DNA of 64,000 bases from Symbiodinium sp. CCMP2592 (taxonomy: Eukaryota; Sar; Dinophyceae; Suessiales; Symbiodiniaceae). The notes beneath the pieces are model-generated. The model did no database searches, was not told the origin of the DNA, and was given only the letters and a program-made list of their open reading frames with translations. The first letter of the stretch is position 1. Each line of letters opens with the position of its first letter. Where the stretch lies: the NCBI GenBank assembly GCA_905221615.1, contig CAJNDT010004635.1:333769-397768 (forward strand). The letters are read 5' to 3'. Positions 18,662 through 41,755 of the stretch are shown piece by piece. Both the position numbers and the translations under genes were made by a program.

Positions 18662-18761
18662 NNNNNNNNNNNNNNNNNNNNNNNNNNNNNNNNNNNNNNN
18701 NNNNNNNNNNNNNNNNNNNNNNNNNNNNNNNNNNNNNNNNNNNNNNNNNNNNNNNNNNNNN
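18662..18761. other. Assembly gap (100 N)
   Basis: Exactly 100 N, the usual placeholder for a gap of unknown size. It should contain the copia 5' LTR, the start of gag, the second TTGTT target copy and the end of the duplicated parent segment. Any protein translated across it is unreliable. Confidence 0.98.
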
Positions 18762-19613: not shown

Positions 19614-22600
19614 CGGCATAGTCGCCCACTTTGCGAATCCTGACCAAGCCTTGTAGATGGATCTGCATACCACGTATGCCATGTACGAAAGAGCAGTCAT
19701 GTTCGCGTCAATGCAATGGGCATTTCGCTTTCCAGAATAGTAGGATGGCTGCATGGCGGTACGTGCAAGTTGTAGCTCAGGGTCGATGTTCAAAGACTGG
19801 CCGGTAACGAAGACAGGACGACGTTCCTGTGCAATTGCTTCTGGTACTGCGTCATCAAAGTCCTCTCCAGGCTCTATGTCCATTTCTTCATCAGGTTCCT
19901 GTTCTGGATCGTCCTCCGCGATGACAGATGGTTCTGGGATTTCTTCAGGTTCCGCAACGGTCTCTACCTCCATGGCTTCCTGCTCCTTTTCGGGCGCCTC
20001 AGGCACTGCGGCTGCTGCGGCTTCCATTGTCTGAGCAATGAAGTCACTGGGGATCTCCGTAGGAGTCTCCCGTTGTGGAGAACCTGGGTAATATCCGCTC
20101 GAAATGAACTGTGACCAGCAAGACGTGCATCGGGAGAAACATGCTGGAACGATGTTGTAGCATGCCGGGCATACCCTCATTCTCCGTCCATCCTCGTCTA
20201 TGCGTAGGTCTTCGGGTCGCCAATTCTTGATGACAAACTTGATTCCTTTGTCCATGTAGTGATGCCGAACCGTGTTCTCCCTGTGGGACTCCAGGACAGT
20301 CGTGAGGTCTCGAATGATCTGCTCCTTGCTTGTGTCGTGGGGTCCAGGAGGCATCTCGCAAAGCAATTCCATGATCTTGCTTGGCGTTCGGTATCTCTCG
20401 AAATCAGGAAGCAACGGTGATGCATTGTAGTCCAACACCAGCTCTTTCTCCAACCTTTCATCGTAGATCTTTTCCACCAGAGCGAAAGAGTGTGTATCTC
20501 GAGGATAAGGGACGCAAAACCATACCTCCTTGACGAAATGGAAAGGTATCGTTCGACCAACGATCATGATGCCGCTGTCTGTGATACGTCCATCTTCTCG
20601 TGCAAGATCTTGCGATGGGACATGAAGGACCGCCAATGGCATGTGCTTGGCGTCTCGTCCATGTACTCGCATCTTGGTCGTTGCGTTCCGGTGATCGAAC
20701 GGCGCAACCACCCCCCAATAGCTGTGGAGTCTGCCACCTTGGTTGCCTCGGAATTGGCGCCTATGGTCGAAGTCCCCGTCGGGGTCCTCCGAACCAGGCA
20801 TGATGCCTTGCGTGACAATGGAATCCAAGTTGCGGCATGCCGTAGCGTGGAACGCACCTCCAAGACGTTGCAAGGGGGTCATAGATGGAGATATTGCGAA
20901 CCTGTTCTTGTCCAACTGAAGCAAGTTGTTCTGGGGATCTGAGTGCGCAGAGTGACCACTCGTAGCCCGAACTGCCCATGGCTTCACCCAGCCGTTGCAT
21001 ATGTTCAGGTACCTCTGGCCATGCCGGCAATGATCGTTGTTCTGGATCTCCGTGTTCTGGTCCTGAACCGATACCAACCTGTTCGAACCTGCTGATCCAA
21101 GAACTTCCGTGCCGGGGTCCTTCACTCTCACACCCAGGAACTGCAACCGAATCTTGGCCTTGTTGCGTTTCGTGGCTGCAATCATGTTCCCCTGGAACAA
21201 TAGCTGACGTCTTTCATTGTACACTCTCTTCTTCTGTTGATCATCGGTCCTTGAGACCCCTTCGGTGATGCGTCTGCTTTCATGGGTCCATAGTGGCTCA
21301 TGCCTCACCAAGTCTTCGATCATCACCCATCCTCCTTCATCACATGTGATGACACTGTTGAATGCCACCTGGCACCTGTTGTCAAGCCATTCCGAGCCTG
21401 GGCGCCTGGCGATTCTGTGGCGCAAGTCAGATTGGATGCATGATAGCGCCCAATCCGCGTTCAGTCTGCGCTGACGGGTGATGTTGCGAAGGACAACTTC
21501 ATTCACGAGGTTCCACCGATTGTTGATGAAGCTTGCACCCTTGGTTGGGATCAGGTCGAGAATCCCGCACCGGATTGGCCTTCCGCCGCCGATGGATTCG
21601 TAGCCTGCATTGGTGTAACTATGAGTGGTATCATCGTAAGCAAAGCTAGGACGGTCTCCTCGTTGAGGTAGGCGTCGGTCGCGATGGTCCGAAAGCTGCT
21701 CAATGAGGTCCACCACTCGCTGGCTATTCTCTGGTCCCGATTCCTGCAGTGGTACGCCACAAGCATCATGTAGGCCCCGACGGTTCTCCACATCCGTGCA
21801 GAGATTGTGTTTGTTCGCATAACGGATCAAGACCACATCACCCCGTACGGCTTCGCCTCCGCGTCGCGGTCGGGCTTTGGCCTTGGGTCGTCGGTCCGAG
21901 GATGCAACACTCACATGATCGGTGGTGTCAACGTCCATTGGCTCAGCCTCTTGTGTAGGTACTCGACGTGGATATCGAAGAAGACTTTCTTTGATAATCT
22001 GGACGCCTCGAAGTACCAGATCCCGGGTTGCAGCATTTTCTGTGCAATTGGACAGAGTGTGTAGATCACTGCCACAAGCGACACAGAACGTGAGGCGGTC
22101 GCTTCCGACCGACATTTCGCCCTGAGCGAGTACTCCCACGTAGTCCTGAAGCTGCGCGACAAATCCTTCACGAATTGCATGCCTGGGATCAGGGCCTTCT
22201 GCACCTTGTTCTTCTTCGGGTTGCGCATCCACATCTACATCCTGTGCAGGTATTGGTGGAGCAACTGAGAACCCTGGATCGTCCGTGACGTTGTCAGCGG
22301 CCTGTGGCTCGTCGGTTCTCGCAATCTCTACAGGGTAGATATCACCATCGACGATCACTGTGAAATCAATCACGAGGTCAGCGGACATGTTGTTGACGAT
22401 CTCAGCGACTGCTTCATTCTTCTTGGGCGGTGTCCTTTTGCGCGGGGAGTCAACCGTGATCAGCTCGATAGCTTCGGCCGACGCGTAGCGGAAGAACGAT
22501 CTTTCGATTCCTCTCGCGCACGCATTTGCTCCCTCAAGGCCACCCCAATTCGGAAAATGACTTGGGTGTCTCATTGCAATTGTAAGAAGCCCGAGCGCCA

Positions 22601-24545
22601 GCTCCACTGTGTCACCCAGGAGCTCTTCCTTGGGCAAGACTGACCCTCGGTAGCATTCTTGGCGCTCTTCCGGAGTCAAAAGCATCCTCATGAAACCAGC
22701 ATAAGCGCAGTTCCCGGCATCGTAGTAGCAGATGTAGCATGTCTTGCCTTCGGAGTCGTACCCTCTGTCCCACGCCAACTGTTTGGCCTTTCCCCAGGCC
22801 GCGTACTCGATGGCCTGACTGGCTGTGATTCGGAGACCACCGTAGTGAGAAACCGTCTTGCCGATGTCTTCATAGACCATCTCTGCACAAACTTTGAGGA
22901 ATTCCTTGATGTCCACGCGAGGATCCACGAATTGAAGCCTCAGGTCATAAAGGTGCTTTGCGCAAGCCAAGGTGTACTTCTGGGACGTGATCAAGTCATT
23001 GAAGGAGCTGATTTGATGCTGCATCTTCAAGGCTGAAGTATGCGCGCACCCAATGCAGTGTCCAGGATAACCGTTTCCGGTCGGCTTGAAGAAGGCTTGT
23101 GCGTAGCACTCAGCCAACTTCATTGCTTCACATCCAGGGCAATAGAACGTTCTCCCTTTGACATAACCAGTGTTCAGGGTTGCATAGGTGTCGATCCTGA
23201 ACCAGTAGTGCCTGTTGTCGTAGTAGGCTTCGGGAACGGTCATGGCGATGTCAAAATCCTGCCAGGTGACTGTGGACGATTCAGCGACCGTGTCACCCTG
23301 GGCACCCGACCTGATCTGTTGCTGCTGTTCTCCCGTAAACCATGTCTGCGAAATCCTGGTGGACGTCTTGACTTCACTCTTGTCCTCCAAAATCTCGACA
23401 AGCGACGGGTGAGCGACTGAGTCGGCGCGGACAGTTTCGTCCCATGAGCGAACTTTCGATGCCTCAACAAAGCACGTGGATACCATCTTCTCGCAGAACA
23501 GCTGCTTCTCGTAGATAGCGAGGCCCAATTTGAACCTGACCCGCTTGTCCGGTGGTGGCACCTTTTCGACTGACAGTGTATGCACGCCTGACGACGCATG
23601 TTTCGCCTGGCTATACATTCTTGACCAAAACGAAGATCCATGAATCACCACGCATGCTCGGGCCCGCAACTCCAGTTCAATATACATTCCCAGCGCGTGG
23701 AAACCGTTGAACATAGAAGCTTTCTGTCGAAGGTAATTGCTGGCTGCTCCTACGAACCGTAAGGCATGATTGATGTTGACAATTGGAGGGCGCGTGGTAC
23801 GCTTCCCTGCCGCAATGATAGGGTCAACGTACGTGACCTTGAGCTGTCGCTGCAAGTCAGCACGAATCGCTGCTCCGTCTCCGACCTCACTCATCGGAAA
23901 TGATATGTTCTCGATGAGGATCGCTTGGAGAGACAGATGGTAGTGCAACGTGACGGTTGCAAGATGCTCTTCAGTCAAGCCATCCAATGTCTCATTCACA
24001 GATTCCAACGATCCCTTTGTGACTTGGAAGTTGTAGTTGGCACCTGCGGTGATCGACGGGCTCACAATGTAGATCTCACTCCATCCATGCATGACGAGAT
24101 TTTCTCTCACTGTATGCGTAGATCCTCTGGTCCTTGCGACCATGTCAAAGTCTTGGACGAGGATTGTGCATTGAGAGCGCATAGTCGCGGCATCAGGCTT
24201 GCCACCCATACCCAAACTATTGCGAAATCCGTTCAGCGTGTTCATGGTATTGATCCTTGCTTCTGCCGGAATTTCATCGTTGTCGACAAGATCGTTGTCT
24301 GCCTCGATCATCACTGCCGAGGTAAGCATTGGAGGAGAAGGAAGATGCACGAACGACACCAATGCCAATGCATGGTACAGCCGTGAATACATCCGTAACC
24401 ACATCTTCGTGCTCAGCTTCACGTAGACCTTCAGGTTGAGACCCTTGTCGTCACTTTGAGAAACGGAACGAATCCTTGCCAAGTAGGTCACCAGTCTTCT
24501 GACGTAATGCTGAATTGGTGTGGTCCCCACGTCGTGGTTGGCCAC
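18762..24545 (-). CDS. Accessory ORF of the giant element, main part, with Tpt1/KptA-like RNA 2'-phosphotransferase domain
   Basis: About 1,930 codons before the gap; one in-frame TAG (24558-24560) separates it from the upstream part. Residues about 1035-1335 match the Tpt1/KptA layout. There is a winged-helix lobe with Leu-Arg-His (DLRHRIARRPG, about 1041) and GGWVMIEDLVRH, then RATSGHS (about 1193, family R-A-x-Q-G-H-S), FHATACRNLDSIV (family H-G-T), an Arg-x-His step (GGRLHSYWG, about 1268), and a closing DSGIMIVGRTIP strand. Known Tpt1 enzymes move an RNA 2'-phosphate to NAD+. Cys clusters (CPGC...CIGC about 468-496; CVACGSDLHTLSNC about 821; CPACYNIVPACFSRCTSC about 1462) could bind zinc. 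The first 900 residues are unrecognised. Domain call from motifs only. Confidence 0.65.
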
Positions 24546-26339: not shown

Positions 26340-29300
26340 TTAGTTGTTCCTTAGTTGGGGCTGTCTAATAGCCCCTTCATCAGCGTCTACACACTGATGT
26401 TGCTGCCATGCAATGTCCTCAGATTCATGTGCAACATGACTGACATTGACATGAGCTCGAACAAGGCTGCGAACATTCCTCGCAATTGACCGCCATGAGA
26501 CACCAATGCGCTGCGACAAACTGCTCATCGAATCATGGTCCAAGCAATCATCCGGTCTCATCCCCAAACGATCCGCTTCAGGCATGTTAGAGAACATGAT
26601 CCTGCGTCCACCACCATAGCCACCAGCACCAACATGATCATAAACCTTAACCTTCGTCACCTTGCCACTTGAAACAAGAGCATGCAACTCTGGCCAAGAC
26701 CAACATGAACATGAAGAAGGCATGTCAAGCGAAAAATAGACGTCGGAAAATTCCGCACACTTCTTCAGCAGGCGTTTGAGAGATTTCAAGACACTTCTGA
26801 AAACCTTGTACTTTCCACCAGAACGTTTTTCACCCCCCACGCAAGCCCCTTCACTACTTCCAGGACCAACACCTGATCGCAAAAGCGATGCCACGAATAG
26901 CACAGGTGTGCGCAGGTCATTCCGGCACGAATCCTTCATTGCACCGATAAGGCTGTCCTCATCGGCCTTAGAGCCAATTAGCTTCTTGCAAGTTATGCGA
27001 GCGCATCCCTTAGTGGACTTAGGCACGGCGTAGCCATTGCCCAAGCCACAGAGGTCAACAATCATGCGGTCAGGCTTTCGTCCACCAGCCTTCGACGGCA
27101 TTGCTACCAATCTCCCATCGCCCGTTGCCTGAAAATTCAAGGCCTTAAGCAATCTCCTGGAGATTTGGATAGTCAACTCGCATTTATCAGATCGATCCTT
27201 AGCGTCCGAATCGGTCATGTGCAAATGTTTGGACGAGCACACGTCAGACGACTTAGGATGCAACGCGACGTTTGCGGCAATGTACTCCCATTCATCCTTG
27301 CAGTAGCCGAGCTCAACGGCAGTTCCGGGAGATACAGGATCCCGAAAGGTATAACGTTGCCCGTGAGTGCATCCTTGGATCTTGATGCTCTTCCACATGG
27401 CATCTTCCTGAAGTCCCTTATACTGCTTGGTTTCTTGGACTGGTACTCGAGGAGGCACTTCGATGATGATTTGGAACCCCCATGATGCCGCTCTGCGCGC
27501 AATTCTTTGGACGACCTCCCCCCATGGGTAGTCTGTCCGCAATTTGCCTTTTTCGGGGTTGTCAGCGATTTTCCGACTCAGCCACGAATTCTTGCCCAAC
27601 ACCCCTGCACCAACGAAGATTACGGAGTTAGGGTTGTCTTTTCTTGCTTGCACCACATCAAAGATGTAGGCGCACATGGCGTCGTCGACTTCTCGCCCCA
27701 TACTCAGAACATTCACTTGCAGCCCGGGGTCGTAGTGAGAATCGGGAGCATGCTGGGCGATGCAATCCCTGCCTGGAGCATACTCATTCCACCAGTTCTC
27801 CTCATCGACTCCTATCAGTGTCCATAGCGTCACCGCCTTTGGAGCATCTTTGATAGTGATACGGTACTTCCACCGGCTGTAAGGGTTCTTGTAAGCATGG
27901 ACCAACCTTCCATCGTGGTCGAGAAATTGGATCACCAGACCCTCCTTGGGCTTGTTTTCGGCGAAATTGACCACGTGAGGCACAATTGCTCCATCATATC
28001 CTTGATATTCCCTTTTCTGTTCCGCCGCATCATGCCATACATCTTCGTACACCGACGACCATTGGTCATAACCAAATTGAGAGGCTTGACTTTTGGACTG
28101 GCCGTTAAAACAAAATCCCTGGTGCAATGTAAAGCCCTGGTACCCCCCATGGATGGCACGCGCCAGTGTGACAACCACCGCTCGCCATCTGGCGGGCAGG
28201 GCGCGCACATAAGACTGGCCTAGAGGCGGTTCAGGAGGAGGCAAAAACGGCGGCGCAAGGACGTCCGCAATGGCGGCGGGGCGCAAATGTCCCCGTACCG
28301 GATGGTACTGAAACACAGCACGCTCCACATAGCGGTCGAACTTGCCCGGTGTGTCAAGGATAGCAGCACGGTCCTCCAGCTGATGCCACTGCCCTTCACG
28401 AAGAATCCAAGTCGACCGAAGGTACCGACCAGGCGGCAACGCGGAAGGCGGCCCCCGCAACATGCGCGGGAACTTGACAACCAGGATGGGGTCCACACTG
28501 TCATGTTCTTGCAAGCCTTCCTTACTCGACAATCCAGCGCGATACAACACCTGAGGGAGGATCGGCGTCTGCGTGTAAGGACAACAAGGCACCTCGCTCT
28601 TGAACGAGTAGTGCTGCTGACCCTTCTCATCCGTGCTTTGGGTATGAGTAGGCCGCATCAGATCCATAATCTCTTGGGAGCCGATGAGATCCGGCGGAAA
28701 GATGTTGATGAGCTGACACGCATGTGTCCAGGACACGGAATCCTTGAACGACCTGGTGTGTATGTCCGCTGACATCTTGGCAGTGACCTCATAGGCAAGA
28801 GAAACGTAACCTTCCTGAAAGATAGAATGCATCCAGCCAATGCAGATACCGTGGGTACGTTCCAAGTGACGCATAGTCGGATTCTTGCCCGTGCGAATCA
28901 CCCCGATCATGGTCTGGTTGTCGTCGTAGAAGACGAAGTTGGGGTCTTGCCCCCCAAGCTGCTGCCACAACGTGATAGCAGGGAATCCAAGACGTGACAT
29001 GGCAAAGTCGGCCGCGACAATCTCGGCCTCAGGTGTGGAATGACTCAAGCATCCCTGCCTTTTGCTAAGTCCCGCCAAGGGAAATCTTGTGTGAGAACCT
29101 TGAATGTGCAAATGAGCACCGGAGGTAGATTTCAAACTTTCTCCACAACATGCATAGTCCGCATCTGCAAACAGCCCGATGGACGAGTCCTCCAAGGAGT
29201 TCCCGACCCATCCAATCATCATGTGATGTTTGGACTGGTGCACATAGGCCATGAGATGATGAAGAAGCGCATCCTCCTTCTTGGTCCATTTCGTGATCTT

Positions 29301-30308
29301 GCGTGCGAGATTGTTGATACTGCGCAGAAGATCAAAGCGGCAAATGCGCGCGGCATAAAGCAATTTCATGAGAATGCTGGCTGCCTGCGGAGCAAGTGCG
29401 CCGCGATTAGCCTCGTTGATTTCCTCTTCCTCGGGCGCCTTGGGGATAGGTGGAGGCGGAACGAGCCGACCATCCTTATCAACAGGCATGGTGTGTCCAC
29501 ACCACGTGCATCGATGGCTTTTACCTGACTGTGCCGGAGCGCGAGCTGGGTGATTCTTAGTCTCCTCAGCTGGACTCGGCGATGGTACCGTCTTGAATTT
29601 TGTCGGATCGAACCCAGTCACGTCGCAGTACTTCTTGACTGTCATGTCCAGGTACGTCTCCATGTCGTAGGTAACGGTCTGCACCTTCGTTTTGTCATGC
29701 AACGTTGCCTCGCCCTTGGAGATGCGACAACCTAGGTACAAGCCCAGTGGTGTTTCTTCTTCCAATCGAAGTTCTTGGCGCAACATGTCCCAACCCTTGG
29801 GTAGATTCTCTTTGGGTCCTGCCATCTTGAGATCATCCACGTAGATGACAAGTAAGAGCTTCATTTGCGGGTGGAAATACAATGATGGCCATTCATCGAC
29901 AATCGGCTTGAACCCTACTTTCTGTACCGCGGTGTGGCAATGTTGTTCCCACATGGTTCCTGCGTCAGGATGTCCATATAGAGCTTTGATCAGGCGACAT
30001 AACGGCCTACGGAATTTGTGCCGTTTCGCAGATGGATGCCAGGCTTCATCAGGCAGTTCAACCCAACATGGAGTGCCCGATAGTCTCGCCTGAATGTATG
30101 CTTGGATAGCGTCCGCCATCTGGACATCGTTGCCAGGAAGGCATCCGTAATAATCTGCCCACCGTGAGGCGTCAAACGTAGCCGGGGAATTCCCCAAATC
30201 CTGAAACAATGCGGCTTCCATATTCTGGTCTTTGACCTGATCACCGAGTAGTACACCTCGCCCCTTGAACTTCCTGGCAGGATCGTCCTCTTTGAGCTGA
30301 TAGTTCTT
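26340..30308 (-). CDS. Giant element reverse transcriptase-RNase H with ~700-residue C-terminal extension
   Basis: The frame is open from the TAG at 30309-30311. Copia RT motifs, numbered from 30221: Asp in NDVQMADAIQAYIQ (about 30), ALYGHPDAGTMWEQ (about 79) and the catalytic VIYVDDLKM (about 125). Between RT and RNase H sits a Cys/His insert (HRCTWCGHTMP). RNase H has LFADADYACC (about 350), TPEAEIVAAD and VFYDDNQ, ending at about 530. The following 730 residues are conserved-looking but unrecognised, with VIFVGAGVLGKNSW, PDRMIVDLCGLGNGYA and, near 1160, SLDMPSSCSCWSWPE. Copia polymerases normally end soon after RNase H, so this extension is exceptional. Stop TAA at 26340-26342. Confidence 0.8.
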   Translation of the reverse strand, partial: KNYQLKEDDPARKFKGRGVLLGDQVKDQNMEAALFQDLGNSPATFDASRWADYYGCLPGNDVQMADAIQAYIQARLSGTPCWVELPDEAWHPSAKRHKFRRPLCRLIKALYGHPDAGTMWEQHCHTAVQKVGFKPIVDEWPSLYFHPQMKLLLVIYVDDLKMAGPKENLPKGWDMLRQELRLEEETPLGLYLGCRISKGEATLHDKTKVQTVTYDMETYLDMTVKKYCDVTGFDPTKFKTVPSPSPAEETKNHPARAPAQSGKSHRCTWCGHTMPVDKDGRLVPPPPIPKAPEEEEINEANRGALAPQAASILMKLLYAARICRFDLLRSINNLARKITKWTKKEDALLHHLMAYVHQSKHHMMIGWVGNSLEDSSIGLFADADYACCGESLKSTSGAHLHIQGSHTRFPLAGLSKRQGCLSHSTPEAEIVAADFAMSRLGFPAITLWQQLGGQDPNFVFYDDNQTMIGVIRTGKNPTMRHLERTHGICIGWMHSIFQEGYVSLAYEVTAKMSADIHTRSFKDSVSWTHACQLINIFPPDLIGSQEIMDLMRPTHTQSTDEKGQQHYSFKSEVPCCPYTQTPILPQVLYRAGLSSKEGLQEHDSVDPILVVKFPRMLRGPPSALPPGRYLRSTWILREGQWHQLEDRAAILDTPGKFDRYVERAVFQYHPVRGHLRPAAIADVLAPPFLPPPEPPLGQSYVRALPARWRAVVVTLARAIHGGYQGFTLHQGFCFNGQSKSQASQFGYDQWSSVYEDVWHDAAEQKREYQGYDGAIVPHVVNFAENKPKEGLVIQFLDHDGRLVHAYKNPYSRWKYRITIKDAPKAVTLWTLIGVDEENWWNEYAPGRDCIAQHAPDSHYDPGLQVNVLSMGREVDDAMCAYIFDVVQARKDNPNSVIFVGAGVLGKNSWLSRKIADNPEKGKLRTDYPWGEVVQRIARRAASWGFQIIIEVPPRVPVQETKQYKGLQEDAMWKSIKIQGCTHGQRYTFRDPVSPGTAVELGYCKDEWEYIAANVALHPKSSDVCSSKHLHMTDSDAKDRSDKCELTIQISRRLLKALNFQATGDGRLVAMPSKAGGRKPDRMIVDLCGLGNGYAVPKSTKGCARITCKKLIGSKADEDSLIGAMKDSCRNDLRTPVLFVASLLRSGVGPGSSEGACVGGEKRSGGKYKVFRSVLKSLKRLLKKCAEFSDVYFSLDMPSSCSCWSWPELHALVSSGKVTKVKVYDHVGAGGYGGGRRIMFSNMPEADRLGMRPDDCLDHDSMSSLSQRIGVSWRSIARNVRSLVRAHVNVSHVAHESEDIAWQQHQCVDADEGAIRQPQLRNN

Positions 30309-31019: not shown

Positions 31020-31239
31020 TTTTCCAAAATTGCTGAAAGCAAAACATTCGAGCAAAGTTATCGCCATAAATAACTCCGCAATATATGCAATATAAAAGAT
31101 TCGAATCCCACATAAGGAGCAAGCTCATCACAAGAGACGGAATGCAACATCGGATGAGCAGACTTTTCCTTGGATGTGCAATCGTAGCGCTGTGCTCTTA
31201 CGAGGGAGGCCCGAGTGACCTTTGGTCAGGACCCCCCCC
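31020..31239 (-). repeat. Split direct repeat A, copy 1 (element terminus)
   Basis: 220 bp beginning TTTTCCAAAATTGCTGAAAG and ending in a C-run; repeated at 31526-31745. It borders parent pol sequence directly at 31019. Confidence 0.9.
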
Positions 31240-31298
31240 GTTGTCAGGAAAACACCCCTCCCAAGCGCGAAAAGAATCTTAAAGGGTGGGATGGGCGG

Positions 31299-31525
31299 GA
31301 ACAAAAACATTGCCCCACCTCCGGGCTCGAGCATAACTGATATGAAGCAAAGATGTCAATCGTCCAACACGATTCAAAAGGGCAAGACGTGAGCATGCAA
31401 AACCTAGCATGCAAAAAGAGAATGCTTCAAGAAATGGGAAAACCAAAATCATTGGTTTCCAAAGAGGCCCACCCTACCAGCCCCTTTCATGATTTGGAAA
31501 ATGCCTTTGGGCAAGCCCAAGAAGC
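31299..31525 (-). repeat. Split direct repeat B, copy 1
   Basis: 227 bp (GAACAAAAACATTG ... CCCAAGAAGC), repeated at 39255-39479 with a 2-base length difference. Abuts repeat A copy 2 directly, the internal B-A junction diagnostic of split direct repeats. 31240-31298 is a 59-bp single-copy spacer. Confidence 0.9.
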
Positions 31526-31745
31526 TTTTCCAAAATTGCTGAAAGCAAAACATTCGAGCAAAGTTATCGCCATAAATAACTCCGCAATATATGCAATATA
31601 AAAGATTCGAATCCCACATAAGGAGCAAGCTCATCACAAGAGACGGAATGCAACATCGGATGAGCAGACTTTTCCTTGGATGTGCAATCGTAGCGCTGTG
31701 CTCTTACGAGGGAGGCCCGAGTGACCTTTGGTCAGGACCCCCCCC
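31526..31745 (-). repeat. Split direct repeat A, copy 2
   Basis: Near-identical to 31020-31239; directly follows repeat B copy 1 and borders the end of the RT-RNase H gene. Confidence 0.9.
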
Positions 31746-31764
31746 CACAGGCGAGGGCCAACCT

Positions 31765-34700
31765 TCAGCCCCACTTGGTTTTGTCATACTTAACCTTCCG
31801 CTTGCGAAGAGAAGATGGGGCACTGCATACTCCCCTCTGACTCCAGCTGGAGACCTCATCATGATGCTGAGACAACTTCCGGAGCAAGCTAAGATCACAA
31901 TCCTTCAAACGGACGAGGATGCGGAGATTGGGATCAAAAGCTCCAAACGATTCGTTTGTCAAGTCGTCCGCGATGGTGTTAACTTCACGCGGCCTCCAAT
32001 TGAGCTTCAAGTGACCTCCACATTTATACAAAGAATGAGACAACTGCATCTGCACATACGCCAGCGGAAACTTCAAGGTGCTATTCTTGGCCGTCACGGT
32101 TTCATTAGCCAAGTTGTCCGTGCCAGCCGATACTGAAAAGCATCGTCCTCTAGTCTCTAGCCAGCCAAATGCGTGTAAAGCCACAAGGGTGGCCAACAGC
32201 TCCGCCACAGTGCTCATTCCCTCAGCGGTGCCGCGGTCATTGAAAAGGGCCGGTATCTCTTGCGCATGCACCTTAAGAGAGAACCACCTAGCGCGCCCAG
32301 GTTCAAGAGAGTGGCAAGTCTCCCAACCTCCCAGAACATAAAAGTCCTCGGCCGCCTTGGCATCCGTGCGAAAGGACTCAGCTTCGGCTGGGCGTGCACC
32401 CCGACATGAAACCTGAGCGTGGCCCTCAAGAAGCATCGAGCGAATGTACTCCAGAGTGATCATCACAAGCCTTGGCGCAACTGCGACCGTGCCCGGAACC
32501 TGAGCACCCTTCCAGCGATGCAATGGAGCCATAAATGGCCTAAGCCAGTAAAGGACCTGGCCAGCGTACACCAGACGGCCCACAAACTCCACGAACCTCC
32601 GATGGTCGAGCAAACCACGGTCACTTCGAGCAGCATTCACGTACTCGATGATCCAGTTCGCCCTCCGTTCCGAAAGACCCATGGAGAAGCGGAAGTAGTC
32701 AAAGGCGAATCCCACGTAATCAAGTTGCACCCCTCCACGAAACTTGCTCCACTTGAAGGGTGTCCCAACCATGAGCCAGAAAACCAGAATGGTCCAGACA
32801 TGATCATACTTACGGGGACCCCCACTGAAGAACTTCAAGTCATCAGCGAAGAGAAACTGGAACAGCGGGCTCGTCATCAGAACTGTCAGTGCACACCTCC
32901 CAATGAGCCCAACAAGCCTGGCGAAGTGATAGGCAGCGCATGCCATGCCAAAGGTCCCTACCCGGTTGAACCAAATGGGACCATCCTCGCGCGCCCTACA
33001 GCCGAGGTAGCCATGGTCCTCCGAGCGATGTTTGTACCTTCGGTGGCCCTTAGCCACATCCGCGGCCACCCCAATCAGCAGATGATAACCATCGTCCTCC
33101 ATCTCCTCCATGGCACGTCCCACGCAGGATGGTCCAGGGAATTCTAAGTGATCATCAATGCGAATCCGATTGTTAAGCTTCACGGAGTGGGTACCGTCAA
33201 AGATGGTTCGGACCGTGCCATCGTCCTTCATGATGGCTCCTAATGACGCCACATGTAGCTTGTCTCCAAACCTTTTCCGTGCCTCAGCCTCGCTCAAAGG
33301 AAACATCATACCAAGAGCTTCTTCTTCCTCGAACTGTGCCTCCAACTGATCCGGAACCAGAGCTGCAGAGGAGTAGTTAGCGTTGATCGCCTGATAAGGT
33401 GAATCATCATAGTCTCTCCACTTCTTCTTCGGCCGGAACACCAGAGGGACCCTCGGGAAGGGTGAGTCGACGCCCACTTTGCGCCCCGAAGCGTAGTTCT
33501 CCGGATCCCTCGTCAGAATCCCCCAGTCCTCATCCCCAAGAAGCCGACTAGTCTGCGAAAGCGCCTCCAAGTAGAATGGTTGGCCCTCCGCCACCTTAGA
33601 GGCGGCCTTGGAGTCAGGAAGCAGCCGAAACCACTCATCACGCAAGTGCTCCATGCTTTCCGGACTGAAGGGGGCCGAAGACATCCTGCCCAGAGCCAAA
33701 CGGAAGAAAGCCTTCTTGGTGTCATCAATGTTCTCCGAGACGAACCTCAAAAGCAGTCCGTGAATCCTCTGCGCGAGATCACTCGCCTCCCAAGGAAGTC
33801 CCAGACCTCGGGACCCCGGTCGCCACCTTCCGGGGCTGTTCAGTCCGCAACCGTCGCACATGGATTGATGCAGACCTCGCCAGCTAACCGTGAGTGGGTC
33901 CCCGTAGTTGTAGCTCCTCGCGGCCTCCATGTAGCCGTGAAATGGGTATTCAATGTCGGGGGACTTGACCTTTGAAGAAGTAGAGCGTGTAGGCCCCGTG
34001 TCCCCATGATCCTCATCACCTAGAAGCCGTTCCAAGAAAATTTGATCCTCGGACTTAAGCTTATGCGGATCCCTGATCGAGAAACCGATGACCACGATTC
34101 GAGTGCCTTCCCAGTCCTCGGTAGCATGCCAGAGCGAAGGGTCGAACTTTAGGAACCCCTCAACAAACCCCAACACCCTGAACTGCCGGAGCTGACCATT
34201 CACGATCATCTCCTGGTCACCAGTCTCGTCCTCCAGCAGCAGGCCGCCCCTCGAGAAGGAGGCAGCCTTGACTACGATGTTGTGGCTGCCAGGTTCGTTG
34301 TTCTCATCCCTATGCGGCCCCGTCTTTATGTCCCTGCCCAGCAAGACAGAAGTGAACTTAGAGCCAGGACAAACGCAGTTGATGATGCAAGCCAGCAGGG
34401 CGGTTGTCCAAGGAGAGGCCCGGCAGTGCTTGCGCAAGCCACAGACACCGCCATGAACGTAAGCCCCGCTGGTAAAGAGTTTCTCCGTAGGCAACTCCCC
34501 TGGCCTGCGTCCTCGGCCTGTCTCCTCGTCGGAGATCAGGTCGCAAAGGGCAAACATGTCCGCCTGAGAAATTCTACCAGACATGGCGATCTCCCGAGAC
34601 TTGCTCTCCAAGGAACATGAGGGCTCCCCTAGGAGTGCCACCTTTGCCAAGGACCAGGGAGCCCATTGCCAATCAAACAGCTCCGGAGGCTGCAAAACAG

Positions 34701-35604
34701 CAGCAGCTAGATTTTGGGAGGTCGTCATGCGGGCGCCACTTGCTGCAGAACCCCCCCCAACGCGAAGACCAAGCAAGCTGGCGGCCAGCCAATGGCACAT
34801 ATTAGGAGGATAGGCAGCAGATCGCGAAGTTTTCCAATCACCGTCGGAATCCTTCCCAAGAAGAGGTTCATGTACATGCCCACAGTGGCGAGGAAGAGGT
34901 CCTGCATATGAGCCATCCGAAGCCAGACGATGAGCACCAGGAAAGAAGGTGAAAGAGTCCCAGTGAACATGGAAAGCCATAAACCGGGTGGGCTTCTTAC
35001 TGAGAGCATCGCCCCAATGGCACTGGAAGAAAGCGAAGGTTTCCACGCCTTCGAACAAGAGCAGATGCTTGCTATCGTCCATGTCCAAAATGGACCCAGG
35101 AATCATGTGCTGCACCTTTCCCAACTGTTCTGGGTGCTCAATGATGAAGGCTACGCCAGCCTCGACACAAAGCTGGCAAAACTCAAAGGACTTTGAAACA
35201 AGGAAGTTGGCATCCTCAACAAGATTTCTGTTGGAATCAGACAACCAAGGAAAGCCATGCAGGTACTCAAGTGAACGTAAGGGCGGTGGCCCCGGAGATA
35301 TTCTCCAGCGCGCCCTCGCCCTCGAAAAGGTGTTGCAAGGAGGGGCCAGCACAACGGCATCGGCTTCCTTAAGAAGCTCGGACAGCGTGGCCCACAAACT
35401 TGTTGACCGAAGATCATGCCCTGTACTGCGAGTGAGATCAATCTCCAGCCCGAAAAGGTTGATATCATGCTTCCGGGAAAGCTCCACGAGGTAGCTCTTC
35501 ACATCCGAATGGCGGGTAGGCCCAGCGAAGAGATACAAGAATCTGTAAGTTCGGGAAGCAATCCCAGGCACTGAATTCCACTCTTCCCAAGAAAAACCTT
35601 CGAG
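31765..35604 (-). CDS. Methyltransferase-like / 2OG-Fe(II) dioxygenase-like / RT / RNase H polyprotein
   Basis: About 1,270 codons; the ORF proper starts near 35571 (GTG; no ATG), in frame with the gag-like gene across TGA 35605-35607. Residues 1-230 follow C5-cytosine-methyltransferase order: FLYLFAGPTR (motif I), GLEIDL (II), VVLAPPCNTFSRAR with the Pro-Pro-Cys nucleophile (IV, about 76) and FIIEHPEQ (VI, about 142). Residues about 360-500 look like a double-stranded beta-helix dioxygenase: GPHRDENN (His-x-Asp, about 417), FSRGGLLLEDE, LWHATEDWEGTR (distal His and Arg, about 478-490). RT: Asp in VAADVAKGHRR (about 827), FLFADDLKFF (about 904). RNase H: SAGTDNLANETV (about 1150) and NWRPREVNTIADDL. 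All catalytic residues named are present. The first two domains are calls from motifs. Confidence 0.75.
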   Translation of the reverse strand, partial: LEGFSWEEWNSVPGIASRTYRFLYLFAGPTRHSDVKSYLVELSRKHDINLFGLEIDLTRSTGHDLRSTSLWATLSELLKEADAVVLAPPCNTFSRARARWRISPGPPPLRSLEYLHGFPWLSDSNRNLVEDANFLVSKSFEFCQLCVEAGVAFIIEHPEQLGKVQHMIPGSILDMDDSKHLLLFEGVETFAFFQCHWGDALSKKPTRFMAFHVHWDSFTFFPGAHRLASDGSYAGPLPRHCGHVHEPLLGKDSDGDWKTSRSAAYPPNMCHWLAASLLGLRVGGGSAASGARMTTSQNLAAAVLQPPELFDWQWAPWSLAKVALLGEPSCSLESKSREIAMSGRISQADMFALCDLISDEETGRGRRPGELPTEKLFTSGAYVHGGVCGLRKHCRASPWTTALLACIINCVCPGSKFTSVLLGRDIKTGPHRDENNEPGSHNIVVKAASFSRGGLLLEDETGDQEMIVNGQLRQFRVLGFVEGFLKFDPSLWHATEDWEGTRIVVIGFSIRDPHKLKSEDQIFLERLLGDEDHGDTGPTRSTSSKVKSPDIEYPFHGYMEAARSYNYGDPLTVSWRGLHQSMCDGCGLNSPGRWRPGSRGLGLPWEASDLAQRIHGLLLRFVSENIDDTKKAFFRLALGRMSSAPFSPESMEHLRDEWFRLLPDSKAASKVAEGQPFYLEALSQTSRLLGDEDWGILTRDPENYASGRKVGVDSPFPRVPLVFRPKKKWRDYDDSPYQAINANYSSAALVPDQLEAQFEEEEALGMMFPLSEAEARKRFGDKLHVASLGAIMKDDGTVRTIFDGTHSVKLNNRIRIDDHLEFPGPSCVGRAMEEMEDDGYHLLIGVAADVAKGHRRYKHRSEDHGYLGCRAREDGPIWFNRVGTFGMACAAYHFARLVGLIGRCALTVLMTSPLFQFLFADDLKFFSGGPRKYDHVWTILVFWLMVGTPFKWSKFRGGVQLDYVGFAFDYFRFSMGLSERRANWIIEYVNAARSDRGLLDHRRFVEFVGRLVYAGQVLYWLRPFMAPLHRWKGAQVPGTVAVAPRLVMITLEYIRSMLLEGHAQVSCRGARPAEAESFRTDAKAAEDFYVLGGWETCHSLEPGRARWFSLKVHAQEIPALFNDRGTAEGMSTVAELLATLVALHAFGWLETRGRCFSVSAGTDNLANETVTAKNSTLKFPLAYVQMQLSHSLYKCGGHLKLNWRPREVNTIADDLTNESFGAFDPNLRILVRLKDCDLSLLRKLSQHHDEVSSWSQRGVCSAPSSLRKRKVKYDKTKWG

Positions 35605-36897
35605 TCAGCTGGGCTTATTGCCCTTCTTGGAATCTGGCCCATCGGCCTTGTCACCTCTGTTCTTACACTCGCTGCGGGGATGTGGCTTAAGACAAAGTTG
35701 ACACACATGAACGCGCCCACAATTTCCCGGACAAGACCCATTGTTGTAGCCATAGCAAATTTCGCGACCGTCAGGAGTCTTGCGGAAGACGAAGCCATTC
35801 TTGGAAGGCTTACCAAGAAACTTGCCCTTGCCCTTCCCCTTCCCTTTGCGATCACGGTCCCAGCTAGGATCAGGGGTTGGCGGCGGCGGCGCCCCATCAA
35901 TCTTCTGAAACTTTGCAGGCGGCCCGGCTGAGAACGATGCACGCGAAGCCATCTCCATGGCCAAGGGCCCGACGAAATAGGTCTCTTTGAGCATGGCGTT
36001 GTCCCTGGCCTCCTTGAGTGTGTCGGTCAAGGATCGATTGTTTCGGCTGGCCTGCTTGTAAGCCTCCTTTCTCAAGCGATGTTCGTAGTTAAGTACAAGT
36101 TGCCAAGAAGGATTCGCCCAAGACATAGCGGGACCCCCTTCAGGACGTACTGTCTGCAACAAGTAGATCTTGTCGCCCAGTACGTAGTCAACATGCAGAA
36201 GAAAATCCTTGGAGCTCAAGCCCTGAAACCATGCTTTGTTGCGAAAGCGTGCGGCAAGCATCAGAAATGTGTGAGCCTCCACTCGCAACCTCTGACGGAG
36301 CTCTTCAGACCCGGTCGGTAGCTTGGCCTTCTTGCGCTCCTTAGTGAGGCGCAACCTGCCGGAGGAGTCCACGGACGACTGGAAGTTGGCGTTCACTTCA
36401 TCCACTGTACAAGTAACTTCATCCAAGAGCGAAGCCTTGATTTCTCCAGCCTCAACCTCCTCCATTTTCAATGCCAGGTAAGTTGAGCTAGGTTCTTCAC
36501 GATCTTCCAAGGATCCTAAAGAAGCTTCAAGAGCTACACGCATGGCCAGACGATCATTGGCCGGAAGGGGTTTTGGCAACCCCAAAACGTGTGCCTCTGC
36601 CTTGAGCTTTCTCTCATGCTCCGTGGTGTCCAGAGCGGATTGCCAGGCAGCAACCAGTCCTGCCAGAGCCGCCCGGCCGGCAGCAGTGTCCGGATCCACC
36701 GTTACATCACTGGCGAAAGCAGCTCTCGCACCAGCCCGTGTGTCGGCCAGTGCAGCGAACCTGACCATGGAACGGTAATTCTGCCCCAACTCGTACTGGT
36801 GTAGCAGAGAGACATTCAGCTCCTCCCAAAGATAAACCAAGTCGGCACTAACATTCTGTGCCAAGAAGGTCCTTCGATTCTCATCTGTGAGCGCCAT
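35605..36897 (-). CDS. Gag-like protein with CCCH and CCHC zinc motifs
   Basis: 430 codons from an ATG at 36895-36897 (MALTDENRR). An Ala-rich helical N-terminal region covers residues 1-330; a basic patch (DRDRKGKGKGKGKF, about 345) precedes CYGYNNGSCPGNCGRVH (C-x7-C-x3-C-x3-H) and CQLCLKPHPRSEC (C-x2-C-x3-H-x4-C) at about 378-415. Such pairs bind RNA in retroelement nucleocapsids, so a Gag role is likely. It ends at TGA 35605-35607, and the same frame continues into the methyltransferase-like domain, compatible with stop readthrough or re-initiation. Confidence 0.7.
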   Translation of the reverse strand: MALTDENRRTFLAQNVSADLVYLWEELNVSLLHQYELGQNYRSMVRFAALADTRAGARAAFASDVTVDPDTAAGRAALAGLVAAWQSALDTTEHERKLKAEAHVLGLPKPLPANDRLAMRVALEASLGSLEDREEPSSTYLALKMEEVEAGEIKASLLDEVTCTVDEVNANFQSSVDSSGRLRLTKERKKAKLPTGSEELRQRLRVEAHTFLMLAARFRNKAWFQGLSSKDFLLHVDYVLGDKIYLLQTVRPEGGPAMSWANPSWQLVLNYEHRLRKEAYKQASRNNRSLTDTLKEARDNAMLKETYFVGPLAMEMASRASFSAGPPAKFQKIDGAPPPPTPDPSWDRDRKGKGKGKGKFLGKPSKNGFVFRKTPDGREICYGYNNGSCPGNCGRVHVCQLCLKPHPRSECKNRGDKADGPDSKKGNKPS

Positions 36898-36900
36898 CCC

Positions 36901-37176
36901 TCACTGAAATCCTACGGATCTCCCTCGATCCAAGGGCACCCTTGCTTGGCTGCCACTCACATACGACCTTCCCTTCGGCCGTGGCAGCTGCTCAAACCAT
37001 ATGCCAACATTCGGCAGAAGACTGCAATGATTGACGCAAAAGGAAACAGGCACACTCGAGTCACCAATCAATTCAGCAACATGACAGCGGCAAGCACTGA
37101 CACGGCGCACAAGTGCGGTAAATTTTTCCTCGAGGTAAGGACCGACCTGACGCACAAGTGCGGTAAAATTTTCCCC
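36901..37176 (-). CDS. Short in-frame ORF between recombinase and gag-like genes
   Basis: About 90 codons open between TGA 37177-37179 and TGA 36901-36903, in the common frame. It contains a duplicated segment: CACAAGTGCGGTAAA occurs at 37108 and 37153 (plus strand), giving FTALVRQ and FTALVRR. It lacks a recognisable domain and may equally be a non-coding intercistronic region whose repeat has a regulatory role. Confidence 0.35.
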   Translation of the reverse strand, partial: GENFTALVRQVGPYLEEKFTALVRRVSACRCHVAELIGDSSVPVSFCVNHCSLLPNVGIWFEQLPRPKGRSYVSGSQARVPLDRGRSVGFQ

Positions 37177-39219
37177 TCACTCAAAGGAAGGCGGCCCATC
37201 CTGAAGATTGCCCTCCTCAGCAGCCCCTTCACTCTCCTCCGTAGCCGTGCTACTGGAGCTACCAGAGGAGGAGGAAGCAGAGCCTCCTTCCTCTGCGATC
37301 TTTCTCTGGCAAATCTTACACCATGCATCTGCCTTGGCCTCCTCTACCGAAGCAACGAAAACTGCTTCGTGCACCGACCATGGAAGCACACCGCACCCGT
37401 TGGTAAGGTGCAAACGCCTGAAGCCCGTGCGCCTGGAAATGGAATACCAGAAGCGGCCCTCCTGATTTGACACAGGTTCTGAGCCGGCTACCAACGCTGC
37501 CTCAGCTCTATCATCGACTGCCAGGGTAGCAATAAGCAGTGGGAAGCGTGTCAAGAGAGCCAAGTGCCCTGCATCAGACCTTCGCCAGATTTGATGACCT
37601 GTCACCCCTCGCAAAGAACTCACACCTCGGTCGGCACAGTACCGCTTGAGATCCTCGAAAAGTTCGAGCTCACTAACAGACTCGTGTCCCAGGCAGAGTG
37701 CTTCATTCACACGCTTCTGGACACGATAGACAACCTCCCGTGCCTTAACGACGTACTCCATGCTCTGATGCGCTCCTGCCTGCCACCGGCCTAAATAGTC
37801 CAGGTCGCACTTCGGAACCCCCAGCGCTGTACCCCAGGAAGGTAGCCAGTGGCGGGCAGAATGCCCACTCCAGAAACTCTGAACATCCACAGGAACCAAA
37901 TAGAAATCATCAGCCTTCCAGACTGAGCCATCGAAACGTGGCCCCAGCAAATGCGTGTACAAGCCCCTAAGGTGCAATGAGAGCTGCTCTGGCTTGAGAA
38001 ACTTTCGGACACATCCTGAATAGTCCTTAGTGGGTGCAGCCACAAAGTAGGGGCGTTCCCAGTAAAACGCTGGCTGCTGAAATAGTTCCAATCCTACACG
38101 AAGCCAATCATGACCAGACAGGGAGAGGGTCCGGAGAATAAAGACCGGAACCTCCCTAGCCTTTTTCCCGGGCCCCGTCGTCTTGGAGCGCCTCAAAACA
38201 AGCGTGAGCCCATTATCCGTGAAGACCATGCGGCAGACATCCAACCATTGCACGTCATCAGTACGAAGGGTTCCCCAATGCATAAGCAGCCCGACCCATG
38301 CCAGAATGCGCATGAAGGGCGCCGCTTCATCGTCGATAACAAGCAATTCCATGGAGATAAGCATTGCAACAGTGCACAACTTAGCTGGTTTCTTGGGCGG
38401 CGCGCCTCTCTCCAGCTCCTCCCCCATTGCCTTAGCCATATCGTTCAGTGTGGGATCCGATCCGAGACGGCCGTCCCCTGCAATCCTTCCCACGTTCTCC
38501 AGCAGAGACAGTGAAGAGAGTACATCCCTAGGGACACTGACACCACATCCTTCGGCAATACGATGCTCCAGATAATCTGTAACATCCAGTACACTCTGAG
38601 GCCAGGAGGTTCTCTTCACCAACGTAAGCCACAAATGAAAACCCTTCCAAGTTTTAGCCCGATTCCTCAGTGTCTTGGCACGGCGGCTACCAAAAATCCT
38701 GGACCAGACCTGAGAGGGTGTCTCACTTGAACGAATGAGCTCCATAACAGGAAGATCAGCCTCCTCAATATAACCTGCCAGAACATGCTGCCACCTACCA
38801 CGTTCCTTTTGCTCCAGCTGTTCAGGATCATCTATGCCCGCCTGGAGGGACATGCCCAGGTGACTTCGACGGCGATTCTTCTGGACTTGTCCTACCACCG
38901 AAGAAATGTCCTGAAAACAGTCTTGCATAATTCGTAGCTCATCAGACGAACCCGGCAGCCTGGGGCACCGCATGAGGGTGCATTGCCGGAAGTATGCTTG
39001 TCTCTTGGCCCCTGCTCCAGTATCCCGAAGCTTCCGCAACGCATCACGGCATGCCGAAGTAACCTCTGGATCTGAAAGATTTGCAGCCGCCAATAAATCC
39101 TCCAGCCCCTCGTCGCTATCAAGGAGCTCCCAAGCAACAAGCGGATGTCCATAAGCAGCTTGCAAACCCTCACGTAAGACAGGTGGGAAGTGACCCCAGC
39201 CCTCTCTAGCAACCGGCAT
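37177..39219 (-). CDS. Tyrosine recombinase (integrase of DIRS/Ngaro type)
   Basis: 680 codons from the first ATG outside repeat B2 (39217-39219, MPVAREGWGHF); the open frame extends upstream into B2 without an ATG. The catalytic C-terminal fold shows Arg in HWGTLRTDDVQW (about 319), a Lys-bearing strand (LRRSKTTGPGKKAREVPV), HSARHWLPSWG with the His-x-x-Arg box (about 454), LGRWQ after it, and Tyr in SMEYV or VVYRV (about 488-498). The N-terminal region has a helical core-binding layout. A C-terminal Cys motif (WCKICQRK) and an acidic Ser-rich tail follow. The enzyme would insert circular cDNA without target duplication, as the borders show. Ends at TGA 37177-37179. Confidence 0.8.
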   Translation of the reverse strand: MPVAREGWGHFPPVLREGLQAAYGHPLVAWELLDSDEGLEDLLAAANLSDPEVTSACRDALRKLRDTGAGAKRQAYFRQCTLMRCPRLPGSSDELRIMQDCFQDISSVVGQVQKNRRRSHLGMSLQAGIDDPEQLEQKERGRWQHVLAGYIEEADLPVMELIRSSETPSQVWSRIFGSRRAKTLRNRAKTWKGFHLWLTLVKRTSWPQSVLDVTDYLEHRIAEGCGVSVPRDVLSSLSLLENVGRIAGDGRLGSDPTLNDMAKAMGEELERGAPPKKPAKLCTVAMLISMELLVIDDEAAPFMRILAWVGLLMHWGTLRTDDVQWLDVCRMVFTDNGLTLVLRRSKTTGPGKKAREVPVFILRTLSLSGHDWLRVGLELFQQPAFYWERPYFVAAPTKDYSGCVRKFLKPEQLSLHLRGLYTHLLGPRFDGSVWKADDFYLVPVDVQSFWSGHSARHWLPSWGTALGVPKCDLDYLGRWQAGAHQSMEYVVKAREVVYRVQKRVNEALCLGHESVSELELFEDLKRYCADRGVSSLRGVTGHQIWRRSDAGHLALLTRFPLLIATLAVDDRAEAALVAGSEPVSNQEGRFWYSISRRTGFRRLHLTNGCGVLPWSVHEAVFVASVEEAKADAWCKICQRKIAEEGGSASSSSGSSSSTATEESEGAAEEGNLQDGPPSFE

Positions 39220-39254
39220 CGCTGTCAGCCTGCATCCATGGCTGCGTCCCACCC

Positions 39255-39479
39255 GAACAAAAACATTGCCCCACCTCCGGGCTCGAGCATAACTGATATG
39301 AAGCAAAGATGTCAATCGTCCAACACGATTCAAAAGGGCAAGACGTGAGCATGCAAACTAGCATGCAAAAAGAGAATGCTTCAAGAAATGGGAAAACCAA
39401 AATCATTGGTTTCCAAAGAGGCCCACCCTACCAGCCCCTTTCATGATTTGGAAAATGCCTTTGGGCAAGCCCAAGAAGC
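39255..39479 (-). repeat. Split direct repeat B, copy 2 (5' terminus on the minus strand)
   Basis: 225 bp matching 31299-31525 except for a 2-base deletion in the GCATGCAAA(AC)CTAGC segment. It borders parent pol sequence directly at 39480. Confidence 0.9.
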
Positions 39480-40304
39480 ATATACAATGCCGTCCCCTTT
39501 CTTTCCCGTACTCCAATGTTCAATCTCCTCGGGAGCCAACTTCTTTTCTTTCAAGATCTTAATAATCTCTCCAGGTTCTTCGATGTCTCCTTCGGGGATG
39601 AGTCTACCGGTTGGACCGACTTCGCGGGGCGATCGTCGATCTTTCCCAGTGACCTTTGGTTCAGAAGGAGGCGGTGCTGCACGTAGACCCAGCTCTTCAT
39701 CTAGTTCTTCGAGTCTTTTGTCTCCTATGGCATCGATAGCTTCATGTTCTGCTGACTTGAAGACTTCGCCGAGCGGCTCCGTCTCAATGTCAGATGGATC
39801 TATGTCCTGTAAGTCAGGATCTTCTCCGGGATCCGGTGGAGGAAGAAGTCCATTTTGATCATCATCATCCCCGTCGCCACCATTTCCCCCGGGCGGACCG
39901 TCATCACCGTCATCGACGTCTTTTATCTCCTTGCCAGCGAGGTCAACGTTGTGCCTGAGTCCCTCAATGGTTGAATTCATCCTTTCGTACTCGGCTTTCA
40001 GGGGAAACGTTATCTCCTCTGGGAAGTAGATAACTTCTGTCTCGTACGGTCTCATCAACTTCCTGGGAACAGATGCGTCCATCGACAAGTTCGCGTTGGC
40101 AAATTCCTTCATATCCCAAACGCGATACTTCTTGGACCATCCTTGACCAGCAGTGATGATGTATCCGGCAAAATGCCTGGAATCCCCTTTGGATCGAATT
40201 TGTTGCCATATGTCTTCGGCCTTGTGTCCGTCGGCTTGAAGAAGACTTTGGCCCCAAAGGGTATGGCTTTTCCCTCGAAGTCCTTTCCAGTCATTCGCTT
40301 CCAC
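39480..40304 (-). CDS. Giant element pol: integrase C-terminal to RT linker, upstream of insertion
   Basis: Credible from about 40172 downward (FAGYIITAGQGWSKKYRVWD, typical of the segment behind copia integrase), followed by an acidic Gly/Asp-rich linker. Loss of one base in the A-run at 40170-40173 (T-run on minus) explains the shift from the integrase frame, since adding one T would join GIPGI to FAGYI. The frame enters repeat B2 at 39479 and would read straight on at 31019 without the insertion. Confidence 0.75.
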
Positions 40305-41755
40305 GCTGAATCACCATCGCCCTCCACGTCTTCAACGTTGAGGTTCTGCATCACGCAATTAAGCGCAAAGGACCAGTATTGAGCGGGCAATCCGGCGTGT
40401 AGCATGGATGCTGCGACTGTGTTGATCACTTCTTGATTTGATCGTTCAGCGAGTGAATTGTTACTGGGTTTCCCTGGAAGGGAATGATCTATCACGATCT
40501 TCAACTGCGCCATAGCTGAATCGAACTCTGGTGCTTCATCACTGTACGCCATATGAATCTTGCGTCTTCCCATAAGGCGTCTGATGGCCATGACGACTTC
40601 GTCAGTGCTCCTTGAAGCCGTGGGAATCGCTGCGATCATTTTGGTGGCGATGTCTCTGATGACTAGAACTTCACGTGCTCCGTCATCGAGTCCGATGCCT
40701 GCTTCGGCGGCCTTGCGCATGTCAAGGAAGTCGAACGTCACAAGATCTCCCCAGTGTTTGATCACACGTTGAAACGCACCTCGTTGTGTTCGCAAGTGCT
40801 TCATCTTCGCGCGTATGCACGATTCGCAATATGGATTGCGGTAGCGATGAGTACACAGATGTGCCAACGTCTTAGCTTCGGCTTTCAGTGTTCCGACTCT
40901 GGCCTTGCGGCTCGGCGCACCGTCGCCTTCTACATCAATGATCACCTCATCGTCACCATCCAATGGAATTTCACCCACTCCTTTTCCTTCGTCATCGTCC
41001 GGAGGTCGTCCGGCCTCGGACTCTGGTACTTCTTCTATAGGAGGTTCTTGGGGTTCAGGATCAGGAGGTCGTTCATGATCGTCACCTTCTTCTTCTGCTT
41101 CAATCTCGCTCGGTGCAGCTTCAGCGGCAGCTGCGACGCTGACGTCAACATTGCCCGCTGTTAGCGCACCCTTGAAGATTTCGGTGATCGCTTTGGCCTC
41201 CGGATCATCATGAACCAATGACTTGGAACTCCCGGCACGAACGTACGGGATGTCACCGTTCACGAACAGAGATATTCTCTTGCCCTGCGGGTTGATCATG
41301 AATGGTTCCCTTCCGGGTGGCCACACAAACCCGTAGTTGAAGTTCATACATCTCTTGCCTATGGAAAGCACCGACGGCGTGTCATCCAACACATAAGCGT
41401 TGATCGGTTCCTCGAACGACTCAGTCTGGAAATTCGACACGAGATCGGTATCGGTGATTCCATTGGCTGTCTGAAATGATATGGGCTCTGGAGTCACGAG
41501 TGTTTCGAGACTGTGCTTCTCGATCTTCTTCTGAGATATGAGGTCGTGACCACACCCAGTGTCCATGAGAAACTTGATCTTCTTCTTGAGGATGACTGGT
41601 TGAACCATGCATTTGAATACGCCTTGATTGATGATCCGTTTGCTGTGTGCAGCATCGAGTTCGCGCTCAACGATGGAATCCTCACCGTCGTAGAAGAAAC
41701 TTCTTCCACTCGAGACGTTCCTGGGATTCGTACGAATGAAACTCGATCTCCGCAT
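40109..41755 (-). CDS. Giant element protease-integrase
   Basis: Starts with ATG at 41753-41755, immediately after an in-frame TGA and overlapping the end of gag by 262 bp in another frame, so Gag-Pol would need ribosomal frameshifting or separate initiation. The aspartic protease has FLMDTGCGHDLIS (about 58-70). A long acidic linker follows (about 190-270), then the integrase zinc segment HRYRNPYCESCIRAKMKH (about 305), catalytic Asp in VTFDFLDM (about 340), Asp in AYSDEAPEF (about 402) and Glu in SLAERSNQE (about 436). The last 20-odd residues after GIPGI are out of frame because of a one-base deletion. Confidence 0.8.
   Translation of the reverse strand: MRRSSFIRTNPRNVSSGRSFFYDGEDSIVERELDAAHSKRIINQGVFKCMVQPVILKKKIKFLMDTGCGHDLISQKKIEKHSLETLVTPEPISFQTANGITDTDLVSNFQTESFEEPINAYVLDDTPSVLSIGKRCMNFNYGFVWPPGREPFMINPQGKRISLFVNGDIPYVRAGSSKSLVHDDPEAKAITEIFKGALTAGNVDVSVAAAAEAAPSEIEAEEEGDDHERPPDPEPQEPPIEEVPESEAGRPPDDDEGKGVGEIPLDGDDEVIIDVEGDGAPSRKARVGTLKAEAKTLAHLCTHRYRNPYCESCIRAKMKHLRTQRGAFQRVIKHWGDLVTFDFLDMRKAAEAGIGLDDGAREVLVIRDIATKMIAAIPTASRSTDEVVMAIRRLMGRRKIHMAYSDEAPEFDSAMAQLKIVIDHSLPGKPSNNSLAERSNQEVINTVAASMLHAGLPAQYWSFALNCVMQNLNVEDVEGDGDSAWKRMTGKDFEGKAIPFGAKVFFKPTDTRPKTYGNKFDPKGIPGILPDTSSLLVKDGPRSIAFGI

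Follow-up and report, generated by a model that had tools for sequence, protein, structure and literature searches.

What use a retrotransposon might have for enzymes that modify nucleic acids is the question raised by a stretch of 64,000 nucleotides (hereafter the window) of contig CAJNDT010004635.1 of Symbiodinium sp. CCMP2592, where an element at positions 31020 to 39479 carries, in the same polyprotein (Pol) as its reverse transcriptase (RT), one domain resembling C5 cytosine methyltransferases and another resembling dioxygenases dependent on 2-oxoglutarate (2OG) and Fe(II). Our analysis identified this element as a tyrosine-recombinase retrotransposon of DIRS type, young and intact in structure. 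Its kind, a DIRS element with a cytosine methyltransferase, is known; what appears to be new is that its Pol probably has a 2OG oxygenase as well. Either enzyme type by itself, a cytosine methyltransferase in some and an AlkB-type dioxygenase in others, was already known from retrotransposons, and having both in one Pol would place two nucleic-acid modifiers at the site of cDNA synthesis.

The first-pass annotation of this DNA, made from the sequence alone, had proposed a tyrosine-recombinase retrotransposon, and this identity was borne out by split direct repeats that fix the element bounds exactly (Table 1), by the absence of a target site duplication, by the residues of its recombinase and by an RT with RNase H. 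The order on the minus strand is A1, recombinase open reading frame (ORF), gag-like ORF, UGA, pol, B1, A2, 59 nt and B2. When the element is removed, the flanks rejoin as a single open frame (reading GDGIVY before the junction and LTDDGEA after it) with zero duplicated bases, which is the expected outcome of recombinase-mediated insertion. The recombinase ORF gave no Pfam match, and its match to Cre in a PDB search was not significant (E 0.31); motif reading located R357, K384, H491-x-x-R494 and Y527, which we take to be the characteristic tyrosine-recombinase residues. Between the recombinase and gag ORFs, at 37089-37174, lie two 41-nt direct repeat units that are 83% alike and spaced by 45 nt.

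Table 1. Features of the DIRS-type element, in coordinates of the window.
Feature	Position	Strand	Remarks
Whole DIRS-type element	31020..39479	-	split direct repeats; flanks rejoin as one open frame, no target duplication
Repeat A1 (5' end)	39255..39479	-	identical to A2 except for one 2-nt gap
Tyrosine recombinase ORF	37177..39333	-	718 aa counted from a TTG within A1; start putative
Gag-like ORF	35605..36897	-	430 aa; Cys/His cluster near the end, by eye
Single in-frame UGA separating gag from pol	35605..35607	-	context AGC TGA CTC
pol frame	31765..35604	-	1279 codons and stop
C5-methyltransferase-fold domain	34750..35571	-	pol residues 12-285; C90, E156; AlphaFold2, structural matches and conservation
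Probable 2OG-Fe(II) dioxygenase domain	34030..34569	-	pol residues 346-525; H431, D433, H493, R502
Reverse transcriptase and RNase H	31858..33501	-	pol residues 702-1249; family alignment, profile matches, motifs
Repeat B1	31526..31745	-	220/220 nt identical to B2
Repeat A2	31299..31525	-	identical to A1 except for one 2-nt gap
Repeat B2 (3' end)	31020..31239	-	220/220 nt identical to B1

The pol frame was open as annotated, and every motif quoted for it was found there: LFAG at residues 25-28, PPC at 88-90, IEHPE at 155-159, HRDEN at 431-435 and LWHATEDWEGTR at 491-502. The polymerase part was recognized through its relatives, since Pfam RVT_1 matched four of the 36 family rows scanned (best E 2.8e-4) and left the window ORF itself unmatched, and through a PDB profile match to the RNase HI chain 3hst (E 0.0074). 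It also contains the motifs AADVAK, FADDLK, DAK, AELLA, TDN and ADDL, presumably those of RT and RNase H. Upstream, the gag-like ORF showed no significant Pfam match; it shares its frame with pol, in which the first listed start codon is a GTG. The gene models P0002, P0006, P0015 and P0047 (we number database proteins in this way) join gag to pol, presumably via predicted introns. That the UGA is read through is a guess, and no RNA structure was found downstream of it (z 0.80; 157 of 200 shuffles fold equally well).

The best database match was P0002, an NCBI protein entry from Symbiodinium sp. CCMP2592. Compared with the window copy, it has three differing residues out of 1276 in pol, two of them within the methyltransferase domain, and none out of 389 in gag. 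P0002 is probably a second copy of the element, less probably the same locus in a different assembly, and its near identity, together with the identical repeats, indicates recent activity of the element.

The proposal of a C5-methyltransferase-like domain at the start of Pol held as regards the fold. AlphaFold2 modeled this domain confidently (pLDDT 86.4), and the model matched structures of C5 methyltransferases. Pfam DNA_methylase (PF00145) matched none of the 36 scanned rows at E<=0.1, nor the window ORF at E<=1, and no methyltransferase in the PDB matched significantly by sequence. In the alignment of the window domain with 35 of its 45 homologues (without P0002, P0011, P0016, P0027, P0029 and P0042-P0046), the Cys of PPC was kept in 33 of the 35 relatives and the Glu of EHP in all 35; we assume that these residues, C90 and E156 in the window pol, have the usual catalytic roles. 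Such conservation and the confident model imply that the motifs are more than chance. Loss of the Pro-Pro-Cys, which would have spoken against the domain, did occur in the sister lineage P0003/P0004, where PGV replaces it, but the motif is kept in the family consensus.

The second domain is most likely a 2OG-Fe(II) dioxygenase, an identity with moderate support from invariant residues and structural comparison. In an alignment of five of the eight proteins with this domain (alignment A4), just two His and one Asp are invariant, and these make up the H-x-D...H iron-binding set; the 2OG-binding Arg is likewise invariant in 5/5. P0047 agrees at these residues, and P0049 covers the second His and the Arg only. 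All 29 matches listed by VIA-align were 2OG oxygenases (AlkB-, lysyl- and prolyl-hydroxylase-type), obtained with a low-confidence query model (pLDDT 43.7) and despite many unrelated folds in the Foldseek pool. With the same low-confidence model, AlkB-type rows topped both structural lists, without significance.

Homologues were drawn from a search in which the scored candidates were the 7999 sharing most words with the query. A usable methyltransferase domain was present in 46 of 49 proteins (P0047 has only a fragment of it, and the gene models P0048 and P0049 lack it), and 43 of the 46 showed a downstream RT match, the exceptions being P0027, P0029 and P0041. In the RT tree (39 rows, each of more than 330 residues) the window lineage forms one clade with P0003, P0004 and P0047 (100/99), to which the oxygenase-free P0006 and P0008 are sisters (95/99), while P0012 and P0049 group with 17 oxygenase-free rows (99/100). 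In the tree of the methyltransferase domain, built from 41 of the 46 rows (without P0042-P0046), the two oxygenase lineages are also apart, with weaker support: 86/87 for the 22 rows with P0012 and 86/68 for the window lineage with P0005, P0006 and P0008. Both trees gave long-branch warnings, and the label tests left unlabelled rows uncounted. In our reading the methyltransferase is the older of the two, and the oxygenase is a module that may have been gained, lost or exchanged. The sister lineage P0003/P0004 has lost the Pro-Cys and retains the oxygenase residues, which suggests that the two domains need not work in series; in P0012, of the second lineage, both residue sets are intact, which suggests that they can also be retained together. 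Some lineages have the oxygenase and close ones lack it, and one has lost the methyltransferase Pro-Cys, so that the family offers natural with/without comparisons.

A second oxygenase-like type (DxB), recognized by eye from an H-x-D...H...R motif, precedes the methyltransferase in P0037 and follows it in P0041; in these two proteins and in P0039 and P0040, DUF4326 sits between methyltransferase and RT. The window type (DxA) and DxB aligned with an hhalign score of 19.5, with the H-x-D and H..R places in register, but this does not establish homology between them, as that score was also reached by 5/150 family segments, 5/150 shuffled sequences and 3/200 column shuffles. No relatives turned up in viral contigs scanned with the alignments of the methyltransferase and of the dioxygenase and with the recombinase. 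A scan of genome contigs found one, L001 (1-3246), in a metagenome-assembled genome labelled Planctomycetota; it encodes the end of a methyltransferase domain and an RT, without oxygenase, and is probably algal contamination.

The closest known system is SymbioDIRS-Dnmt3, described by de Mendoza et al. (2018, PMC5890265) from Symbiodiniaceae. According to that text, it shares with the present element the DIRS-like A-coding-B-A-B repeats, a methyltransferase in Pol with the RT, a recombinase in a separate ORF and an RT poorly matched by Pfam. The present element differs in that the methyltransferase is unrecognised by Pfam DNA_methylase throughout the scanned rows of its family and in that its Pol has the added dioxygenase-like domain; the word 'dioxygenase' is absent from the main text of PMC5890265. 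As described there, SymbioDIRS-Dnmt3 domains methylate CG de novo, methylation of the cDNA was proposed to keep it from being recognised as foreign where the genome is highly CG-methylated, and elements without a methyltransferase are also active. DIRS elements with a Dam-like methyltransferase, cited in the same paper, likewise combine a tyrosine-recombinase retrotransposon with a DNA methyltransferase, but theirs is an adenine enzyme, structurally unrelated to the cytosine ones (PMC5890265). Capture of a 2OG-Fe(II) dioxygenase by a retrotransposon is described for orchid Ty3/Gypsy elements with an ALKBH5-like domain that demethylates N6-methyladenosine (m6A) in RNA in vitro (part of PMC9289625); those are Gypsy elements with long terminal repeats, of another recombination class and with a recognisable ALKBH5 homologue, and no close sequence relation was seen. 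None of the literature matches listed described, by title or start of abstract, a cytosine methyltransferase and a dioxygenase together in one retroelement, in a search that had subscription journals, preprints and supplements outside its scope.

The first-pass annotation had further suggested that the element could modify its own cDNA or the host chromatin, and some self-modification may indeed be the use of both enzymes. Pol would be made as a Gag-Pol product, through UGA read-through or splicing round the UGA, so that both enzymes would adjoin the RT during cDNA synthesis. By analogy with SymbioDIRS elements, the methyltransferase might add 5-methylcytosine to the element cDNA, which would then look like the host genome with its heavy CG methylation. 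The dioxygenase may be an accessory enzyme of AlkB or hydroxylase type that removes or oxidises base methyl groups on element RNA or cDNA, a role that we favour over oxidation of the TET/JBP type, and the recombinase would then integrate the cDNA without target duplication. Taken whole, from the element through its two enzymes to their proposed roles, this explanation stands in our judgement at about even chances.

Among the alternatives, RNA could be the target of both domains, with 5-methylcytosine made in element RNA and m6A or alkyl damage removed by the dioxygenase. The AlkB-type rows at the top of the structural lists and the RNA activity of the orchid Gypsy domain (as reported in PMC9289625) agree with it, and RNA methylation was raised for SymbioLINE by the 2018 authors (in the text of PMC5890265). 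However, DNMT2 did not stand out among the structural matches of the methyltransferase, and DNA is the substrate reported for the SymbioDIRS enzymes in that paper; we consider this alternative unlikely. It is just as unlikely that the two domains form a two-step set fused to the polymerase, by which the cDNA would be methylated and then oxidised during synthesis and would acquire a base composition that host surveillance mistakes for the host's own; if true, this two-step modification would be the retroelement counterpart of phage DNA hypermodification. The phage sets described in parts of PMC12730594 also pair a C5-methyltransferase with a 2OG dioxygenase, but as separate genes, of TET/JBP type and with glycosyltransferases, whereas the present domains are fused to the RT and their TET/JBP type is unsupported.

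That last point bears on the suggestion, also made initially, of a TET/JBP-type dioxygenase, which would oxidise 5-methylcytosine or thymine of element cDNA or host chromatin. The presence of 5-hydroxymethyluracil in dinoflagellate DNA (as stated in PMC11071213) and the pairing seen in phages speak for it; against it, no TET or JBP chain was among the 29 entries listed for the low-confidence model, and Pfam gave the domain no match, TET/JBP and AlkB families included. Its H-to-R spacing is 9, which we take to be that of PHD-type hydroxylases rather than of TET/JBP. A 2025 survey of fungal transposons, in its relevant part, reports zero retrotransposons with a TET/JBP gene (PMC12730594). The TET/JBP identity was not supported, and we find it slightly less probable than either alternative above.

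At a similarly low level we place the idea that catalysis has been lost from one or both accessory domains, which would then act as nucleic-acid-binding or structural parts of Pol. It draws on the PGV of P0003 and P0004 and on residue 173, which is Leu in the window copy and almost always Trp in the family, but the Pro-Cys persists in 44 of the 46 methyltransferase rows, the Glu has no exception among the aligned relatives, and the iron and 2OG residues do not vary in any sequence covering them. No better placed is the view that the second domain is something other than a 2OG dioxygenase, its H-x-D...H...R being a coincidence or another metal site: PDB sequence searches gave no significant dioxygenase match, the structural matches lack significance and come from a poor model, and the weak PDB profile match goes to AtHAL3a, an unrelated protein; yet the invariant residues stand in the correct order, and 2OG oxygenases filled the VIA-align list. 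Chance origin of the motifs is ruled out for the methyltransferase by fold and conservation, and is unlikely for the dioxygenase given its invariant H-x-D...H set. A Pol with both enzymes would give a testable handle on retroelement life in dinoflagellate genomes, where most CG is methylated and 5-hydroxymethyluracil is abundant.

The element interrupted by the DIRS insertion is copia-type, with an RVT_2 match in ORF 26340-30221 (Pfam, E 7.4e-8); ORF 40109-41755 has sub-threshold protease and integrase matches, and from the rejoined frame the two ORFs are probably parts of one copia-type element. The CG observed/expected ratio was 0.72 in the DIRS element, compared with 0.88 and 1.00 in the copia sequence on its two sides and 0.64-0.66 in the rest of the window; these values are uninformative. 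RVT_2 also matched ORF 11277-13820, which brings the copia-type RTs of the window to at least two. Finally, ORF 18645-24545 on the minus strand (1966 aa) showed a sub-threshold match to the Tpt1/KptA RNA 2'-phosphotransferases (PF01885, residues 1065-1250, E 4.9e-5).
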